NCBI GenBank assembly: GCA_921293015.1 | Contig: OV121091.1 | Location: forward strand, 27,078,839 to 27,142,838 | Length of the DNA: 64,000 bases | Source: Phorcus lineatus | Taxonomy: Eukaryota > Mollusca > Gastropoda > Trochida > Trochidae | Reading direction: 5' to 3' | Shown here: piece after piece, positions 2,112 through 61,568 of the stretch | Numbering within the stretch: position 1 is the stretch's first letter | Layout of the letters: each line of letters starts with the position of its first letter | Position numbers and translations under genes: made by a program | Notes under the pieces: model-generated | What the model saw: only the letters and a program-made list of their open reading frames with translations | Told to the model about the DNA's origin: nothing | The model's database searches: none

Positions 2112-3350
2112 CGTTATATTATAGACATTTATAACGCTGACAAACAGGTGGAATTGTATCACACTGATCTTTCAGAAATGTGTAACGCTGACAAGCAGGT
2201 AGAAATGTATAACGTTGACAAAAAGGTAGAAATGTATAGCACTGACCTTTCAGAAATGTATAACATTGAAACCTTTTAGAAATGTATAACACCGACCTTT
2301 CAGAAATGTATAACACCGACAACCTTTTAGAAATGTATAACACTGACAACCAGGTAGGAATGTATAACACTGACGACCATTACAAACAGGTAGAAATGTA
2401 TAGCGTTGACCTTTCAGAAACGTATAGCACTGACCTTCTAGAAATGTATAATACTGACCTTTCAGAAATGTATAAAACTGACAACCAGGTAGAAATGTAT
2501 AACACTGACAACTTTTTAGAAATGTATAACGCTGACCCTCAAGAAATGTATAACAGTGACAAACAGGTAGAAATGTATAACACTGACAACCAGGTAGAAA
2601 TGTATAACACTGACAACCAAGTAGAAATGTATAACACTGACCTTTCAGAAATGTATAACACTGACAAACAGGTAGAAATGTCTAACACTGGCAACCAGGT
2701 AGAAATGTATAACACTGGCAACCAGGTAGAAATGTATAACACTGACAAACAGGTAGACATGTATAACACTGGCAACCAGGTAGAAATGTATAACACTGAC
2801 AAGCAGGTAGAAATGTATAACACTGACAAGCAGGTAGAAATGTATAACACTGACAAGCAGGTAGAAATGTATAACACTGACAAGCAGGTAGAAATGTATA
2901 ACACTGACAAGCAGGTAGAAATGTATAACACTGACAACCAGGTAGAAATGTATAACACCGACAACCAGGTAAAAATGTATAACACTGACAACCTTTTAGA
3001 AATGTATAACACTGACAACCAGGTAGAAATGTATAACACTGACAACCAGGTAGAAATGTATAACACTGACAAGCAGGTAGAAATGTATAACACTGACAAG
3101 CAGGTAGAAATGTATAACACTGACAACCAGGTAGAAATGTATAACACCGACAACCAGGTAAAAATGTATAACACTGACAACCTTTTAGAAATGTATAACA
3201 CTGACAACCAGGTAGAAATGTATAACACTGACAACCAGGTAGAAATGTATAACACTGACAACCAGGTAGAAATGTATAACACTGACAACCAGGTAGAAAT
3301 GTATAACACCGACAACCAGGTAGAAATGTATAACACTGACGACCGGAGAA
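2112..3350. repeat. 27-bp minisatellite (about 45 units)
   Basis: Tandem units of 27 bp (core AGAAATGTATAACACTGAC plus a variable AACCAGGT, AAGCAGGT or AACCTTTT lead), mixed with some 24-bp units, especially before 2700. Because the period is a multiple of three, several frames stay open. The plus frame 2282-3391 reads as repeats of NQVEMYNTD, and two minus frames are open for 228 and 265 residues. A seven-unit block is duplicated at 189 bp spacing (the AAAAATG variant at 2971 and 3160), showing block amplification. I see no signal peptide or unique protein sequence, so translation is unlikely but not excluded. Confidence 0.93.
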
Positions 3351-4258
3351 AAACGATAATACTGACAACGAATCTTATAAAAATTAACTGATTTTATTTT
3401 TAACAAATGTGCATGCATTTTCAAAGTACGCAATAACCTTTTAGCTGACTTTCTCATTTTTTTATAATTTCCCTTCCATTTTCTATGATTGAAATTAGGA
3501 CAAAATAAGGCGAATACATAAATATCAGTTAAGTCTCAAGTCTGTTATCTTAGCACAAAATTGTAAATCTACGGGTATGTAAACCCAAGAAATCAAGGTT
3601 ATCTGAGCACATAACTGATTTTGATATTTCAATTTAAAGAGATGTAAAATTCTTTTTGCGTTCAGTTTTTATAGAATATATGTCCTGCACAAGATTACAG
3701 TTTAAGCAACTTAACGAAAACGCAGTGCTCATGTAGTGCCTTGTGAACTCATAATCAAAGGTCAATGTTTCTCTGATACGATTTCTTTAAACTTTATCAA
3801 CTTACTAAGCGTCAGAACTTTTGCGTTATCTGTCTCAGAGAAGTGGTTTGGATTTATGGTTCTGGAAATAAAGCTGAATTTCATTACGTGACTTAATGGG
3901 TTTTTTTCATATCGTTTCATCATAGCCTTCACAAGTAAATTCAGCAAAGAGGCGGTACATGCAATAGTGTAGTGTTAGCCTGAAGATGTGTATTTCTTCT
4001 TAATGACTTCTAATAACAAAGCACTTTACATAGGCAGTATTGTGCATTGACAAATACTTGTTCAAATCATGTCTAACCTTTTGGAGATACAATGGTTTGG
4101 ACTCGCACTTAGCCGTCTCTTTTGCTGAAGTATTCAAATAAAGAAAAAAGATTTAAAAATTGTACGTTCTGTTGTAATATAGCCTGACATGGCATTTACA
4201 TTTTGTAAGAATGATTTTCAGGATTAGCACTTACTCTTATCTACATATTCACAGAGCT
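3351..4258. other. AT-rich sequence, nothing recognised
   Basis: No convincing ORF, RNA gene or repeat structure seen. A 61-codon minus frame near 3762-3947 has no recognisable features. Confidence 0.5.

Positions 4259-10162: not shown

Positions 10163-10163
<1 letters not shown>

Positions 10164-10228
<65 letters not shown>
10164..10228. repeat. (TA)n microsatellite
   Basis: About 30 uninterrupted TA units directly bordering the first hammerhead ribozyme. Confidence 0.97.
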
Positions 10229-10230
<2 letters not shown>

Positions 10231-10235
10231 TTAAA

Positions 10236-10300
10236 TTTAATCCGATACTAGTATTTCGTCAATCAATATAGTATTGACTCATCAGGGATGAAACGATATG
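10236..10300 (-). ncRNA. Type I hammerhead ribozyme (copy 1)
   Basis: On the minus strand all conserved core bases are present in order: CTGATGA, stem II, GAAA, a short stem III, then the cleavage triplet ATC. Stem II pairs GTCAAT with ATTGAC around a 9-nt loop. Stem III is four base pairs (AUAC with GUAU) closed by only two bases. Stem I pairs AUCC, just before CTGATGA, with GGAU, just after the predicted cut, and continues past a one-base internal mismatch with UUU/AAA. Predicted self-cleavage lies between 10244 and 10243. The very short stem III is typical of hammerheads in Penelope-like elements and animal retrozymes, which tend to act as dimers. Confidence 0.9.
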
Positions 10301-10549
10301 ATCGTTAACATCGCATTACAAGCGTTTTTATAACAAAATATACGTACAATGTACAAGGATATATTGTAAATTATGCTAATCAGGTGACATCATGGTTCTT
10401 CCTTGTTGGTCTTCTGATTGACACAATCACTCTCTTATGAGTTTACCCCTTGAGCAATATGTTAATGTGACATAATCTCTTTTGTGAATATATATATATA
10501 AATAAATATAACATACTTCACATAGTCGTTTGAAGAATCATTTTAATCC
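10244..10549 (-). mobile_element. 306-nt ribozyme-bounded repeat unit (retrozyme- or Penelope-LTR-like)
   Basis: The sequence between the cleavage sites of two hammerheads in the same orientation forms one complete monomer. A further partial unit continues from 10550 to about 10634, where the ATGATCGTTAACATCGCATT block seen at 10300-10330 recurs. No ORF. Both sides are (TA)n. A transcript of the minus strand would be expected to self-cut into a 306-nt RNA with 5'-OH and 2',3'-cyclic phosphate ends. Animal retrozymes and Penelope-like terminal repeats are built this way; which one applies cannot be settled without an autonomous relative. Confidence 0.75.
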
Positions 10550-10603
10550 GATACTAGTATTTCGTCAATAGTATTGACTCATCAGGGATGAAACGATATG
10601 ATC
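10541..10603 (-). ncRNA. Type I hammerhead ribozyme (copy 2)
   Basis: Same core as copy 1, but stem II is compact: GTCAAT and ATTGAC close a 3-nt loop. Stem III (AUAC/GUAU, 2-nt loop), the ATC cleavage triplet and the AUCC/GGAU stem I are identical to copy 1. Predicted cut between 10550 and 10549. It is followed on the plus strand by the same ATGATCGTTAACATCGCATT block as copy 1, confirming a tandem arrangement. Confidence 0.92.
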
Positions 10604-10637
10604 GTTAACATCGCATTACAAGCGTTTTTATAAACGC

Positions 10638-10676
<39 letters not shown>

Positions 10677-10768
10677 AAGAAGTATCAATCGTGGAGAAGT
10701 ATATATGAAAGTATTAAAAAATACAGAGAAGATGTAAATCAACTTTCACAATCATGACTTTATCTTTT

Positions 10769-10816
10769 TTCCAATATGCATATTTCTGCTTCTTGATTCG
10801 AAGCTTCTTCAGGGAA
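10769..10816 (-). ncRNA. Hammerhead-like motif, variant family (copy a)
   Basis: On the minus strand: UUCC, CUGAAGA (fits the CUGANGA core), stem II GCUUC/GAAGC, GAAA, stem III AUAU/AUAU closed by GC, then UU and GGAA. UUCC and GGAA form stem I. The layout is the same as the canonical hammerheads 200-500 bp away, including the 4-bp stem III with a 2-nt loop. Two deviations weaken it: positions 10.1 and 11.1 are A and A instead of G-C, and the base before the cut is U. It may be a slow or decayed ribozyme. Confidence 0.6.
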
Positions 10817-10895
10817 TATATATATATATATATGAAAGTATTAAAAAATATAGTGAATATGTAAATCAACTTTCAAAATCATGACTTTATCTTTT

Positions 10896-10943
10896 TTCCA
10901 ATATGCATATTTCTGCTTCTTCATTCAAAGCTTCTTCAGGGAA
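10896..10943 (-). ncRNA. Hammerhead-like motif, variant family (copy b)
   Basis: Same arrangement as copy a, 127 nt away. One stem II base differs (C to U) but keeps pairing as U-G, and the loop changes from GAAUCAA to GAAUGAA. Core bases, stem III and the UUCC/GGAA stem I are unchanged. Predicted cut between 10900 and 10899, giving a 127-nt unit with copy a. Confidence 0.6.
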
Positions 10944-11032
10944 TGTACATATGTATAAGCTTCTCCACGATTGATACTTCTTACATTTTCTATATATATA
11001 TATATATGTATAACATAATATACATAATATAA

Positions 11033-43714: not shown

Positions 43715-44887
43715 TTAGGCAAAGGCTACTGTAAACAAGTGGGTCTTCAGCTGTTTTTTGAATATGGTGAGATTTTCACTGTCCTGAATGTTTTGAGGAA
43801 GCCTGTTCCATAGCGAAGGTCCAACTTTGGAAAAGGATCGATCGCCATAGTGTTTCTTCTTTGTCTTGGGAACATCAAGTGCTCTTGATGATCTTAACCT
43901 GAGTTCACGCTTTGGGGTGTAGATTGTGATGAGTTCACTGATGTACTCAGGAGCCAAACCATTCAGTGACTGGAATACAAAAACCAAGATTTTGTATTGT
44001 ATCCGTTGTCTCACTGGTAGCCAATGGAGATCTTGCAATATAGGGGAGATATGGTCTTGACGTCTGGTGTTGGTGATAAGTCTGGCTGCACTGTTGTGAA
44101 CTCTCTGCAGTCTGTCAAGTGAGTGTTCTGATGCCCCATACAACAGACTGTTGCAGTAGTCAATGCGCGAGGTGACAAATGCATTTATCAGGGTCTTAAT
44201 TGCCTCTGTTCCAACATGCTTCTTGATTAGACTGATGCTTCTTAGGTGGTAGTAGCAGGACTTGCAGACATTATTGACATGTTGGTCAGATGACAAAGAT
44301 GATTCAAACATCACACCTAAATTCCTAGCTTGAGAAGTAGGGACAACTTCACAGTCACCAAGTTTAAGTGGCGGGAATTGAAAACTGGTGAGCAAAGACT
44401 TTGAGCCAAAGATTATCAGTTCCGTCTTGTCGGCATTCAGTTGAAGAAAGTGCATGGACATCCAGCGCTGAATTTCTTTGACACAGTCAACAATGGTTGC
44501 CTGTGCATACTCAACTGATGATGGTTTGAGAGGTCTAAATCCCATGTAAATCTGCGAATCATCAGCATATAGATGAAATCCCAGGTTATACTTCCTAACA
44601 ATATCTCCTACAGGTAGAGTGTATAAGGTGAAGAGTACGGGTCCTAACACTGAGCCTTGGGGAACTCCGTATGCAAGCCTCTTTCTCTTCGATTCTTTTC
44701 CATCTATAATCACGGATTGGAATCGGTTGCTCAGGTAGGACTCAAACCATTTCAGGGCGTCGCCAGTAACACCGACACGAGTCTCAAGAAGAGATAGCAG
44801 GATAGAATGGTCGATGGTGTCGAATGCTGCTGATAAGTCAAGCAGCACTAGGGCAGCACCATGTTCAGAATCAACAGACATCAGCAA
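43715..44887 (-). pseudogene. LINE reverse transcriptase, C-terminal part of ORF2
   Basis: 390 codons after the in-frame stop. RT motif A is LVLLDLSAAFDTIDH (residues about 14-28), motif B AYGVPQGSVLGPVLF (about 72-86), and motif C HLYADDSQIYM with both catalytic aspartates (about 105-115). The thumb and C-terminal block follow (RIDYCNSLLYGA, RLQRVHNSAARLI, LHWLPVRQRIQYKI, SLWNRLPQNI, LKTHLFTVAFA). The Met given as start is internal; the true frame enters from upstream through SAYKLGHSTESALL. The enzyme would reverse-transcribe LINE RNA at nicked target DNA. All active-site residues look intact. Confidence 0.93.
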
Positions 44888-44944
44888 ATCATTCTGGACA
44901 CGTAGAAGAGCTGATTCCGTACTGTGACCGAGCTTGTAGGCTGA

Positions 44945-46372
44945 CTACATGGTCTCGTGTAAGTTGCCGTTCTTGAGATGCACCTGGAGACGACTAGCTA
45001 CAACTCGCTCCATGAGTTTAGACAGGAAGGTGAGGTTTGACACAGGCCTGTAGTTCTTTAAGACATCAGGATCTAGATTAGGTTTCTTGAGGAGAAGTCT
45101 GATAAGTGCCTCCTTCAGACATGGAGCAAGTTCACAGTGTGTCAGTGGGAGATTTACAATTTGTGTTATCGTTGGTACTATCTCATCAGTTGCCAGTTTC
45201 AGTAGCCATGTTGGAAGTGGGTCCAATGAGCAGGACTTAGTAGGACATTTCAAGAACACTTTCCTGATTTCATCGCACGAGGCAGGTTGAAAAGAGCTTA
45301 ATCTCAGAGTATCACAAGTTTTTTGATGATTTGAACCTGTACAATGCATATCAACGTCCCCTGTTCGAGCTTGAGCCTCCTCCAGTCTGGATCTAATCTT
45401 CAGAATTTTGTCATTGAAGAAAGAGGAAAATGTCTCAGCCAGGTTTTCTGCAGAGGAATGGGTTGGTAATGTGTTGTTCTTTTTCTGGAACATTAGATCG
45501 TTGCAAACACTGAATAATTCCTTCTGTGATTTTGCCTCATTTATGATGTTGTTGTAGTGTGATTGTTTTGCTTCATCCACAAGGCTATTGACCAGGTTGC
45601 GCTGAGAACAGTGTATCTGACGGTCAATAACAAGTTTTGACTGTCGCATTTTGTTCTCTAACCTCCTCCGTAGCTGCTTTGCTTGACGAATGTTCTCATT
45701 AAACCAGGGTGTTTTCGGGCGGAGACTTACAGTTTTTGTCTTTGGAGGTGCATGTGTGTCGAGAGTCTCTTTTAGAACCCTGTTGTATTCATTGACAGTA
45801 TCCGTAATGCTACTTGTGGTGCTTACAGATGCCATACCGGTTTCAATATCCTTCCTAAAGTCACTGACATCAATATCCTTCCATTTCCGACAAGTCACTT
45901 CCTTCTTCAATCGTCTGGGCTTATTCAAATTCACTGAACACATAATGCAAACATGATCAGACCTGACACTTTCATCATAGACAAAGTTCCAGAAATGAAG
46001 CTCGTCAGATCGTAAAAGAATGAGATCAATGGTGTGACCACTCGTATGTGTTGGATACAGCACGTGTTGAATGAGATTCCGTGAATCAAGAATTGAATAC
46101 ATTCTTCTTGCAGCTGAGTTGCTTGTCACGTCCATGTGAATGTTAAAATCGCCACATAGAAGTACGTTTCCAGCTTTGTTGTTCAGGTTGTCAAGAAACT
46201 CCTGAAACTCCAAAAAGAAAGTGTCAAGTAAGCAAGACTTTGGGGGTCTGTATAAAACATTTATGAGAAATTTCTCATTTCCCAAAACAGCCTCCACCAT
46301 CAGTAATTCAAATGATCCATATTGTGGGTATTTGTGAGTGATATCAGAACATTTTATATTGTCTTGAATCAC
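44945..46372 (-). pseudogene. LINE endonuclease C-terminal half and RT N-terminal part of ORF2
   Basis: 475 codons, same frame as the downstream part. The endonuclease portion has LLCGDFNIHMD (near residue 72-82), SGHTIDLILL (about 112-121) and SDHVCI (about 138-143) with the catalytic Asp-His. A linker rich in charged residues follows, then RT block 1, KNYRPVSNLTFLSKLMERVV (near 440-460). The frame stops at HETM followed by TAG, where relatives have a Gln before SAY, so one CAG-to-TAG change explains it. The start listed is GTG, not a real initiator; the 5' part of the protein is lost. Confidence 0.93.
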
Positions 46373-46390
46373 AATAGCACAATTAAGAAG

Positions 46391-46970
46391 CGTTTAATAA
46401 TTACGATGTTGGTATGGAGATCATTATTGTCTTTGCACATTTAATAAATATAGGTTATTATGGATAGTATCCTGTACTTCCACTTTTATCCGATAAACAC
46501 AGTTAATTTACATCCTCTTTCTGTAATTTAATTCCACCTACATTGAAATTTGATGAAATGAAATAAATAAAAATTAGAAAGTGTTAATTGCCATTTACCA
46601 TTTCAACAAGCAAAGGCGAACAACATTGCAAAATACTATAAAAAAACATCTCCCCCGCGGCGTCTGTACAGGCAGTACAAATCCATTAGGGCAAAGGGTC
46701 TGTAATGGTTTTCATGAGGGTGAAGAATAACAGCTACTTTGGAAGACTAGACGGATTGAGCGATTGGGAAATGAAATAAAAGTCCCATTATCAATGGGTT
46801 GCAAAACCAATAATAAAGTCGCCTGGTACGCTGCTGTTGACAATAAGGTATTAACAACAGCATAAGCATCGTATTGTTGAAGAATTCGATCTCAATATGA
46901 AGTTGAAAACCTTAAGGGAAAAATAGCAATGTCATTCGAGGAAACAAACTGGCCTTAACTTTAAAGAGCC
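46391..46970. other. AT-rich sequence with a repeat fragment
   Basis: About 46650-46712 is an inverted fragment of the 5460-5580 repeat (CAGTACAAATCCATTAGGGC). Nothing else recognised. Confidence 0.5.
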
Positions 46971-49660: not shown

Positions 49661-49715
49661 ATATGAAAAGTTGAATTGGTTCAAACGCAAGGTCACATAG
49701 TCGTTTGCAGAATCA

Positions 49716-49772
49716 TTTTAATCCGATACTAGTATTTCGTCAATAGTATTGACTCATCAGGGATGAAACGAT
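49716..49772 (-). ncRNA. Type I hammerhead ribozyme (copy 3)
   Basis: Identical in core to copy 2: CTGATGA, stem II GTCAAT/ATTGAC with a 3-nt loop, GAAA, stem III AUAC/GUAU, cleavage triplet ATC and stem I AUCC/GGAU. Predicted cut between 49725 and 49724. The motif is bracketed by inverted CACATAGTCGTTTGCAGA (49694-49711) and TCTGCAAACGACTATGTG (about 49776-49793), which could pair over it. A (TA)n follows. Confidence 0.92.
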
Positions 49773-49797
49773 ATATCTGCAAACGACTATGTGAAGT

Positions 49798-49800
49798 ATG

Positions 49801-49886
<86 letters not shown>

Positions 49887-55968: not shown

Positions 55969-56002
55969 AAGAAGGGCATACATCACGCCTAACTAAGATA
56001 TT

Positions 56003-57088
56003 TGGGTAGGGCCTATAGGTATATACATTTGTATGTAAGATTTTAGGGTAGGGCCTATATGTATATATGTAGGATATTAGGGTAGGGCCTATAGGTTTAT
56101 ATGTAAGATATTAGGGTAGGGCCTATAGGTATATATGTTAGATATTAGGTTAGGGCCTATAGGTTTATATGTAGGATATTAGGGTAGGGCCTATAGGTTT
56201 ATATGTAGGATATTAGGTTAGGGCCTATAGGTATATATGTAGGATATTGGGGTAGGGCCTATAGGTTTATTTGTAAGATATAAGGTTAGGCCCTATAGGT
56301 ATATATGTAAGATATTAGGTTAGGCCCTATAGGTATATATGTAAGATATTAGGGTAGGGCCTATAGGTATATATGTAGGATATTAGGGTAGGGCCTATAG
56401 GTTTATATGTAAGATATTAGGTTAGGCCCTATAGGTATATATGTAAGATATTAGGGTAGGGCCTATAGGTATATATGTAAGATATTAGGTTAGGGCCTAT
56501 AGGTATATATGTAAGATATTAGGGTAGGGCCTATAGGTTTATATGTAGGATATTGGGGTAGGGCCTATAGGTTTATTTGTAAGATATAAGGTTAGGCCCT
56601 ATAGGTATATATGTAAGATATTAGGGTAGGGCCTATAGGTATATATGTAAGATATTAGGGTAGGGCCTATAGGCATATATGTAAGATATTAGGTTAGGGC
56701 CTATATGTATATATGTAGGATATTAGTGTAGGGCCTATAGGTTTATATGTAAGATATTAGGTTAGGGCCTATAGGTTTATATGTAGGATATTGGGGTAGG
56801 GCCTATAGGTATATATGTAGGATATTAGGGTAGGGCCTATAGGTATATATGTAAGATATTAGGGTAGGGCCTATAGGTTTATATGTAAGATATTAGGTTA
56901 GGGCCTATAGGTATATATGTAGGATATTAGGGTAGGGCCTATAGGTTTATATGTAAGATATTAGGGTAGGGCATATAGGTATATATGTAAGATATTAGGG
57001 TAGGGCCTATAGGTTTATATGTAAGATATTAGGTTAGGGCCTATAGGTATATATGTAGGATATTAGGGTTAGGTATATAGGTATATAT
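56003..57088. repeat. 34-bp minisatellite with TTAGGG motifs (about 32 units)
   Basis: The unit is TAGGGTAGGGCCTATAGGTA plus TATATGTAAGATAT. Variants are TTAGGG-TAGGGCC versus AGGTTAGGCCC, GTAAG versus GTAGG, and GTTTATA versus GTATATA. A rare variant (TTATTTGTAAGATATAAGG) occurs at 56267 and 56573, 306 bp or nine units apart, showing block duplication. Most units hold one telomere-like TTAGGG, but in a 34-bp frame rather than as a telomeric array. Confidence 0.93.
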
Positions 57089-57703
57089 GTCTTTCTAAAG
57101 CTATTTCATAGCGATACACGTCCCTGTGGAGGCCTCGTCGTGTCAGGGGACACTCAAGGAGAGCACGCTCGTTAAATACTCAAGCCGGATACATCATTTT
57201 GTATTAAGATAGACTTGGAGTTCTCTTTTACACACTACAAAACAATCAATTTGGTTTACCCTTTACGATTGCTTTTTTGTATTTTATGAAATGAAGTGGG
57301 TTGAACATAAATATTACTGTTTATAGATATATTATCTAACGATATATAAATTAATCTTTCGAAATGATTCCTTCCTTATATTATATATTTTTATATTATA
57401 GTTTGTCTTTTGGGTTATTTTAAATTTGTTCTCTTTTCACCTTTAACAAAACACACTTTGCCTATTACTAAAAAATTGTTCAGTAAAGATCATAGGTACC
57501 GCCCATCCTTTATTCCGCAATAAAGTGAGTTCTTGAATGACATCCCAAAACATTGGCCCATTACGGCAACAAAAATAGCGTTATGACGTCACTAGTTATG
57601 GTGCATGTCGATGATTTTAAATTCACGGTTAAATTTACATTAATTCAGGTTAAAATCTATATTACAAGAGTTACAATCGACATACTAGAAAATAAAAAGG
57701 GTA
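57089..57703. other. AT-rich sequence, nothing recognised
   Basis: A plus frame at 57553-57843 (96 codons) ends inside the foldback element at 57704-57845 and shows no domain; I do not call it a gene. Confidence 0.4.
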
Positions 57704-57845
57704 GCCTCAACCATCTTGTGTTTTGCAATGAAGTTTATTTACCTGATTCCTATCAGCGTCTAACCACTCGGCCTTCGGCCTCGTGCTTTAACGATAATAC
57801 CTTTAGGGCAAAACAATACTTTAATGCAACACATGGTGGTTGAGG
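57704..57845. mobile_element. 142-bp foldback element
   Basis: GCCTCAACCATCTTGTG at the left pairs with CACATGGTGGTTGAGGC at the right, with further pairing of TTGCAATGAAGT and ACTTTAATGCAA. Near the centre is a second palindrome, CTCGGCCTTCGGCCTCG. No target duplication resolved. Confidence 0.7.
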
Positions 57846-57959
57846 CAACTTCAACTTTATGGCTTAAATAGAATGCATAATGAACAGATTTAAACTTGAT
57901 AATATCTTCTGCCAACAAATATTGGGAATTCGTATAAAGTTATTTTTGTCTTCTTAAAG

Positions 57960-58648
57960 CATGGGCCCCGCTAACAGAGTCCCCTATGTATAAACTATTG
58001 ACAGGGTGCTTCACCCGCCATCTTCGATCGACTCAAATTGCATTATGTAGTGATAGAACACATTCCCAGAGATACTCCGCCGCTAACCTTTCCTTCATAC
58101 TTATCGTTTTATTCCTGCTTTTAATCTTTCTTTCGCGAAGCGGTCAGGTCACATTTACCTAACCCGGAAGTTAACAATGGCTGCCGACATGGCCGCAGCC
58201 AACACGCTTCTTGAACCTCATTGGTTGATTAGTAGAATGCCATAAACACTTGAAATTCTAAATTTGTTCGCATGACATTTTTAACACGTGAGAGATAACA
58301 ACAATGCCAGAAGTCAACTTAACTCAGTGGTAATATTTTTTTAAAGACATTAATTTTACAATAACTCGTCATAAACAATAACTGGTCGACCGCCATTGAC
58401 AACTTCCGGGTGGGGTAAATGTAACCAGGCTCACTTCGCGAAAATTAAGTCAGAAATAGGCATTATTAAAAAAAAAATTAAGGTAAGATTAGCGGCGGAG
58501 TATCAAAGGATATATGTCCGATCATTTCGTGATATACTTTTAGTTTTTATTTGCGTTTAAAGAGCATTTTACACGCTAGAGTTCGAAGATGGCGGGTGAA
58601 GCACCCTGTCAATAGTCTATACATTATACTCTGTTAGCGGGGCCCATG
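57960..58648. mobile_element. 689-bp long-TIR (foldback) element, hAT-like target duplication
   Basis: Exact 8-bp duplications TCTTAAAG flank it (57952-57959, 58649-58656). The ends begin CATGGGCCCCGCTAACAGAG on both sides. Inverted arms extend inward about 250 bp, interrupted by indels, covering ACTATTGACAGGGTGCTTCA, ACTCCGCCGCTAA, TTTCGCGAAG, ACATTTACC and CCCGGAAGTT. An 8-bp duplication fits the hAT superfamily; TTAA in its centre leaves a TTAA-inserting transposase as a weaker alternative. No ORF. Each arm carries an AAGATGGCGG (YY1-like) and a CCGGAAGT (ETS-like) site. Confidence 0.9.
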
Positions 58649-60046: not shown

Positions 60047-60076
60047 ACGTTGGGCGGGGATATTGAAATGGTCTCC

Positions 60077-60842
60077 GTCCGTCCGTCCGTCCGTCCGTCC
60101 CGATAATGTTTCCGGACCACAACTCCAAAACTGTGAGACCTAGCTCGACAAAACTTGGTATGTGCAACGGGCATCATGTGGAGATGTGCCTTTTGGGGTT
60201 TTCAACTTCTTTGCATTTTTATTTTTACCCGTTTCCATGGAAACGTAACATAGGATTTTGTTTCCGGAGCACAACTCCAAAATGGTGAGACCTATCTCGA
60301 AGAAACTTGGTATGTGCAACGGGCATCATGCGGAGATGTGCCTTTTGGGGTTTTCAACTTCTTTGCATTTTTATTTTTACCCGTTTCCATGGAAACGTAA
60401 CATAGGATTTCGTTTCCGGACCACAACTCCAAAACTGTGAGACCTAGCTTGACGAAACTTGGTATGTGCAACGGGCATCATGCGGAGATATGCCTTTTGG
60501 GGTTTTCAACTTCTTTGCATTTTTATTTTTACCCGTTAATGTTTCCGGAGCATAACATCAAAACGGTGAGACCTAGCTCGACGAAACTTGGTATGTGCAA
60601 CGGGCATCATGCGTAGATGTGCCTTTTGGGGTTTTCAACTTCTTTGCATTTTTTCCGTTCGTCCGTCCGTTCGTCCGTCCGTCCCGATAATGTTTCCGGA
60701 GCACAACTCCAAAACGGTGAGACCTAGCTCGACGAAACTTGGTATGTGCAACGGGCATCATGCGGTGATGTGCCTTTTGGGGTTTTCAACTTCTTCGCAT
60801 TTTTATTTTTACCCGTTTCCATGGAAACGTAACATAGGATTT
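60077..60842 (+). repeat. (GTCC)n and 152-bp tandem array, five units
   Basis: Units start with TGTTTCCGGANCACAACTCC at 60107, 60259, 60411, 60540 and 60691, giving spacings of 152, 152, 129 and 151. Shared blocks include GAGACCTAGCTCGACGAAAC, GGTATGTGCAACGGGCATCA and TTTCCATGGAAACGTAACAT. The third unit lacks the last ~23 bp; the fourth ends in a new (GTCC)n. Frames of 60-90 codons follow the repeat and are not independent genes. Confidence 0.93.
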
Positions 60843-61568
60843 CTTAAAGGTTGTTTGTAGAAAAACAACATGATCACTGTTCAATATTCCACAACTAGTA
60901 TCCTTAACTACCCTTTCCCTTTGGCGGGGGATATAGCTGACTCTGTCTGCTTGTTTGTGTTGCTCTTAATAGGACACATCATGATCGTGTGACACAACAC
61001 TTTCTAAAATATATCCCCCTAAAGTTACCCTGACCCTCAATCCAATGTGTCACGTAAAATTGTGTGATCGCTGCGTTCAGAACCAACAGATGCGGGATGG
61101 GTGGACTTCAACACTTTTGATATTCATTTAGATGATTTACAGTATTCATCCTAAATGCATACGACGAATATTCGACCAGCGCACAAGGAAGCACATATGC
61201 ACGTGTGGGAGAGTATTGCATATCATTAGATGACGTCATCAAGATCAAGTTTTCTCTGACAGTAGTATATGCGCATTAGAACTCCGAACTACCTATTGTA
61301 ACGCTTTATGATATTGTAGCTCTCTATGAAACACCATCGAACATTAAATAAATCAAGGTAGAGGAGATATTGGTCACTATTTTCCTAAGACGCTTCGTTG
61401 CATTATACTGAACGCAAATATACACGTCATAGGGACTATATGTCACATAACATTTAATGATCACTTGAATAAGGTGTAGTTCTAAACGAAACAGGGTACC
61501 TAAGGAAGGAAAAAGTCACACTGATTAATGATGTGTTCGAAACCACGACCATTTTAAGCACATGAACA
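60843..61568. other. AT-rich sequence with a GGCGGGGGAT repeat head
   Basis: GGCGGGGGATATAGCTGACTCTGTCTGCTTG near 60917 matches the head at 29415 but has no array behind it. Confidence 0.5.

Follow-up and report, generated by a model that had tools for sequence, protein, structure and literature searches.

Three type I hammerhead motifs lie in the window

The window, by which we mean the whole 64-kb stretch of DNA analysed here, carries three type I hammerhead motifs, all on the minus strand (Table 1). They were found with our own descriptor scan for the core CTGANGA...GAAA...UH together with stems I, II and III, for which 0.027 hits per window are expected by chance (4 in 150 first-order Markov simulations). 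The first-pass annotation had described two of them, hammerheads A and B, as minus-strand motifs spaced by 306 nt in an element flanked by (TA)n, with a stem II that differs in length and retains its pairing. These features were borne out: the predicted cleavage sites of A and B are separated by 306 nt, (TA)n tracts flank the pair, and stem II of copy B is 6 nt longer than that of copy A and still able to pair. This longer stem II allele has a single genomic occurrence at up to 2 mismatches (958 Mb). Hammerhead A has stem I AUCC/GGAU and stem III AUA-CUAG-UAU in addition to stem II, and copies A and B have a 66-nt stretch in common with zero differences (repeat D4). The third hammerhead, at 49.7 kb and of the same family, had been overlooked; the insertion enclosing it has a long tail end at 49665 (minus strand) and a short tail end at 49806 (plus strand), with (TA)n beyond.

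Table 1 Features of the hammerhead loci in the window, in order of position
Feature	Position	Strand	Basis or remark
(TA)n tract beside copy B	10163..10228	.	sequence
Tail of copy B	10229..10243	-	by eye: short tail with internal deletion
Hammerhead B, with stem II extended by 6 nt	10240..10289	-	descriptor scan; predicted cleavage 10244/10243
5'-truncated PLE end region (3' untranslated / pseudo-LTR) up to hammerhead B	10290..10485	-	genome match
TA-rich spacer	about 10486-10505		after hammerhead A tail
Short-type tail downstream of hammerhead A, entering TA-rich spacer	10506..10549	-	tail comparison
Hammerhead A, type I	10546..10589	-	descriptor scan and sequence; predicted cleavage 10550/10549
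Truncated pseudo-LTR piece upstream of hammerhead A	10590..10633	-	within 66-nt identical stretch (repeat D4)
(TA)n tract beside copy A	10641..10671	.	sequence
Head-to-head insertion enclosing third hammerhead	49665..49806	.	tail comparison
Third hammerhead, same family as A/B	49721..49764	-	descriptor scan; predicted cleavage 49725/49724

The window also holds other repeats. At 10672-11015, a pair of 127-nt direct repeats, 93% alike, sits in TA tracts and is enclosed by an inverted repeat; at locus L002, a sequence resembling them by eye comes after the (TA)n that adjoins a PLE tail. LINE-like remnants with RVT_1 and endonuclease/exonuclease/phosphatase domains lie at 291-1394 and 43715-46393 (minus strand), as seen in a domain scan that covered 8 of the window's 30 ORFs with 90 aa or more. 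Tandem repeats are present at 2119-3391 (27 bp steps, with long open frames on both strands), 55994-57090 (a satellite repeating about every 68 bp) and 60076-60843 (period about 152 bp), and GC skew reaches 0.32 in 56001-58000.

The hammerhead end region adjoins RT and GIY-YIG sequences

The window lies at G000:C17:27078839-27142838 of the genome searched (958 Mb, 74 contigs). Molluscan haemocyanin domains matched this genome 16 times, in two clusters on a single contig, and matched none of 14 control genomes; the host is thus most likely a mollusc. The 24-nt 3' half of the motif has 643 exact genomic copies versus 0 for the reversed pattern, which places the motif beyond chance. The truncated end region leading up to hammerhead B matched 40 near-identical genomic places, covering query positions 156-405. 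At four related loci (L003 to L006), the hammerhead end region adjoins ORFs with a GIY-YIG endonuclease, and on the minus strand of L006 an RT segment and a GIY-YIG segment share one frame with a single stop between them. Pfam scored the L004 segment as GIY-YIG above the cut-off (E 8.4e-8, 32.8 bits) and the L006 segment as RVT_1 below it (E 1e-5, 25.8 bits; cut-off 29.6). The RT segment has at least 110 matches, from 109 scored among 2193 first-look candidates. For five of them, at 99% identity, the reading frame stays open over 787-789 aa and the match itself is free of stops. A search for PDB relatives of the RT segment found none at E up to 0.01.

Penelope-like elements (PLEs) are described as having RT and GIY-YIG in a common ORF, together with a hammerhead, tails and a preference for AT-rich targets (PMC11167929). 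The present family has RT and GIY-YIG in a single ORF, carries its hammerhead in the pseudo-LTR end region and has two discrete ends downstream of the hammerhead, corresponding to the optional PLE tail, while the window copies are without coding sequence. By its linked RT and GIY-YIG domains, as predicted from the sequence, we show here that the hammerhead family is a Penelope-like element. The earlier suggestion of a link to Penelope terminal repeats was correct, and the Penelope RT with the same ends that it had proposed to search for was found in the related loci, with RVT_1 below the Pfam cut-off. L029 (about 2011, minus strand) and L090-L093 revealed a second PLE family, whose hammerhead differs from that of the first and has a minimal stem III; it has 351 genomic matches at up to 2 mismatches.

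Compensated stems support the hammerhead where Rfam and folding do not

The motif has the conserved core and stems I, II and III of a type I hammerhead. The covariance-model search proposed in the first-pass annotation gave no hit in the window that reached the Rfam gathering threshold: the best score for hammerhead A was a weak Hammerhead_3 match (16.7 bits, threshold 48.5, E 1.4), hammerhead B had no Rfam hammerhead match, not even a weak one, and six related loci had none at E up to 1. We rejected Rfam as a decisive test because its hammerhead models score the present form weakly or not at all. Single motifs folded no better than shuffles (z-scores near 0), and their hammerhead state lay at -1.9 and -2.7 kcal/mol versus minima of -9.1 and -10.7. 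Folding was rejected as proof of a hammerhead since the predicted state lies well above the energy minimum. The ten nucleotides of stem III form a palindrome, so that one copy could pair with another there (duplex -9.6 kcal/mol). A double hammerhead drawn with 10 bp in stem III was computed at -19.5, and the joined double-hammerhead string had its minimum at -24.3, with the 10-bp stem formed and stem I absent. Dimeric hammerheads that pair through stem III between copies have been published (PMC6155905, PMC7761336).

Folding alone fails to show the ribozyme; covariation with the second PLE family provides the better evidence. That family has an identical hammerhead core with other stem letters. 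When stems I and II were compared between the families, 8 of 10 pair positions form in both, and 5 of these 8 are changed on both sides. Such compensated stems support a putatively functional ribozyme. In the loci examined, and leaving aside 10 partial places, 44 of the 82 distinct first-family places are identical across the whole motif, while in several of the rest the core or a stem is disrupted. This pattern is as expected of young copies that are decaying. In the lizard PLE, hammerhead cleavage occurred only upon protein addition, and in vitro insertion persisted in hammerhead mutants (PMC11167929).

The internal junction of the 306-nt unit occurs once in the genome

The first-pass annotation had taken the spacing of the hammerheads to define a 306-nt monomer, organised as in Penelope-like terminal repeats and animal retrozymes, from which the locus could make a circular RNA, and had suggested looking for longer arrays. 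The sequence joining the TA spacer to copy B matches the genome exactly at a single place, in the window itself. At up to 3 mismatches there are 22 matches, the window and 21 with 3 mismatches, and the latter were rejected as relatives of the junction: 18 of the 21 share the letters of another repeat (seen in five examined), and L041 is a divergent copy of the first family in which the first stem I pair is broken. A descriptor scan found no hammerhead at L040-L048.

The 100 places listed out of 643 include 13 pairs of neighbours no more than 5 kb apart. Of these first-family pairs, 11 are head-to-head (104-3163 bp), one is tail-to-tail and one is same-strand at 593 bp. The same-strand pair (L071, G000:C1:76336100-76339800) was rejected as a second direct dimer, its two motifs being 593 bp apart with the flank duplicated too, and is a segmental duplication. 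No further pair with the 306-nt spacing and orientation was present among the 100 of 643 places listed, and no longer array was seen. For the second family, the 100 matches listed out of 351 include 14 pairs this close, 12 of them head-to-head and 2 same-strand at about 3 kb. At L029, the window's layout is built from two different PLE families, with motifs 470 nt apart. Since the junction is unique, the longer stem II private and the neighbours mostly head-to-head, the supposed 306-nt 'monomer' shows no sign of multiplying as a unit; the proposal of a retrozyme-like monomer is thus not upheld, its end region being PLE-linked, and among the places listed no common unit recurred in tandem or across the genome.

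Head-to-head copies mostly combine a short and a long tail

Past the hammerhead, many copies have a tail of one of two lengths, short (about 50 nt) or long (about 87 nt), after which they often enter (TA)n. At least 12 nt of TA lay within 150 nt in 49 of 75 sampled copies (part of the 100 listed out of 643 places), compared with 109 of 5000 positions drawn at random from the window and 11 of 560 positions at locus edges. By our own reading of the 75-copy sample, 14 of the 15 head-to-head pairs with both tails classified combine one short and one long tail, the exception (L063) having an ambiguous tail assignment; L013 was left unclassified, and in L020 and L050, where another tail lies close by, the assignment of pairs was a matter of choice. 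Given 45 short and 34 long ends, which are not fully independent, at least 14 mixed pairs out of 15 would arise by chance with a probability of about 0.0004. Outside the sample, tails were also mixed in L003, L007, L008 and the 49.7-kb copy of the window, and L004 was left unclassified. The tail-to-tail pair L064 likewise has one short and one long tail, as does one head-to-head pair of the second family. The direct pair A/B of the window, with two short-type tails, departs from this rule.

A rotifer element in which just one of the two inverted pLTRs bears a tail has already been described (PMC3846280); the mixed-tail count therefore quantifies a known tendency. Each insertion may prime reverse transcription on both cut strands, with the two halves of a protein dimer using different start sites, an idea that we put forward tentatively. 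Possibly, though with no greater confidence, the joint reading is a fixed two-site mechanism and not two independent choices.

Discussion

Two 5'-truncated PLE copies of the same orientation, adjacent in a TA microsatellite and each with a hammerhead-bearing end, are very likely what lies at this locus. Most simply, the pair arose by two successive insertions, and the two copies are probably inert remnants. We base the two-insertion reading on the copy number, the two tail ends, the TA association, the unique junction and the RT/GIY-YIG linkage, and the two-family layout at L029 was counted in favour of separate adjacent insertions. Adjacent insertions on one strand are unusual, because same-strand neighbours are otherwise rare in the PLE family. 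By analogy with the lizard PLE (PMC11167929), the endonuclease would cut AT-rich DNA, reverse transcription would start internally, a short way downstream of the hammerhead, at either of two sites, the choice of start site would leave a short or a long tail, and copying that stops short would result in 5' truncation. The RNA of the element itself would be the substrate of the hammerhead, which perhaps works as a dimer or with help from the protein.

A single PLE insertion with two tandem pseudo-LTRs, in which an internal deletion of the body left 306 nt between the hammerheads, would agree with the description of PLEs as tandem or partial-tandem repeats (PMC11167929) and with the co-orientation of copies A and B and their 66 identical nt. 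We nevertheless regard it as unlikely, because the sequence past hammerhead A ends like independent short tails, in TA repeats and with no continuation into longer tail sequence, and because L029 gives the same layout from two families.

An animal (non-LTR) retrozyme, that is, a 306-nt non-autonomous unit spreading as a small circular RNA cut by two hammerheads, was weighed on the strength of its type I hammerheads in direct repeat, the longer kind of stem III, a length inside the 170-400 nt given in PMC7229834, and a 306-nt RNA whose folding beats 99 of 100 shuffles (z -1.81). With the internal junction found once in the genome, no array, a pair spacing absent elsewhere among the 100 of 643 places listed, and PLE-derived sequence between the motifs, this origin is highly improbable, though the locus might still give rise to a circular RNA. 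The chance that the hammerheads are accidental or non-functional look-alikes inside a repeat is smaller still and close to negligible: the missing Rfam gathering hit and folding not above shuffles would suit such look-alikes, yet they are opposed by the low number of hits expected per window and by the second family, which keeps the core while 5 of the 8 shared stem I/II pairs are doubly changed.

PLEs fit on the features tested, with reservations as to the RT score below the Pfam cut-off (25.8 versus 29.6 bits) and the long stem III; also against the PLE reading, the window copies are without coding sequence of their own. Hammerheads in pseudo-LTRs are known from Poseidon PAc of Anolis (PMC11167929) and from rotifer Penelope families (PMC3846280). 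Like known PLEs, the present family has RT and a GIY-YIG endonuclease, a hammerhead near the element end, two tail lengths, an AT-rich target, inverted head-to-head copies and 5' truncation. It differs from the Anolis and rotifer elements in its unrelated sequence and host and in the (TA)n microsatellite that is its usual neighbour, and its 3-bp stem III exceeds the 'minimal' form described in PMC7761336 as usual for PLEs. With animal non-LTR retrozymes, in which a single unit is repeated, whether just twice or in extended arrays (PMC7229834), it shares direct-repeat type I hammerheads a few hundred nt apart and low GC; unlike them, it has no shared repeated unit, no arrays were seen, and its intervening sequence comes from a coding PLE. 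Its palindromic stem III, pairable between copies, resembles that of amphibian satellite hammerheads that act as dimers (PMC6155905, PMC7761336), from which the family differs in having no satellite array and a dimer activity that is putative.

What is new here is the PLE family in its host and the tail count. A candidate circular-RNA element is thereby replaced by a recently amplified PLE family that records where insertions start and end. How Penelope elements begin copying on both strands was left open in PMC11167929, and tail counts over many natural insertions could test how Penelope copying starts on both DNA strands.
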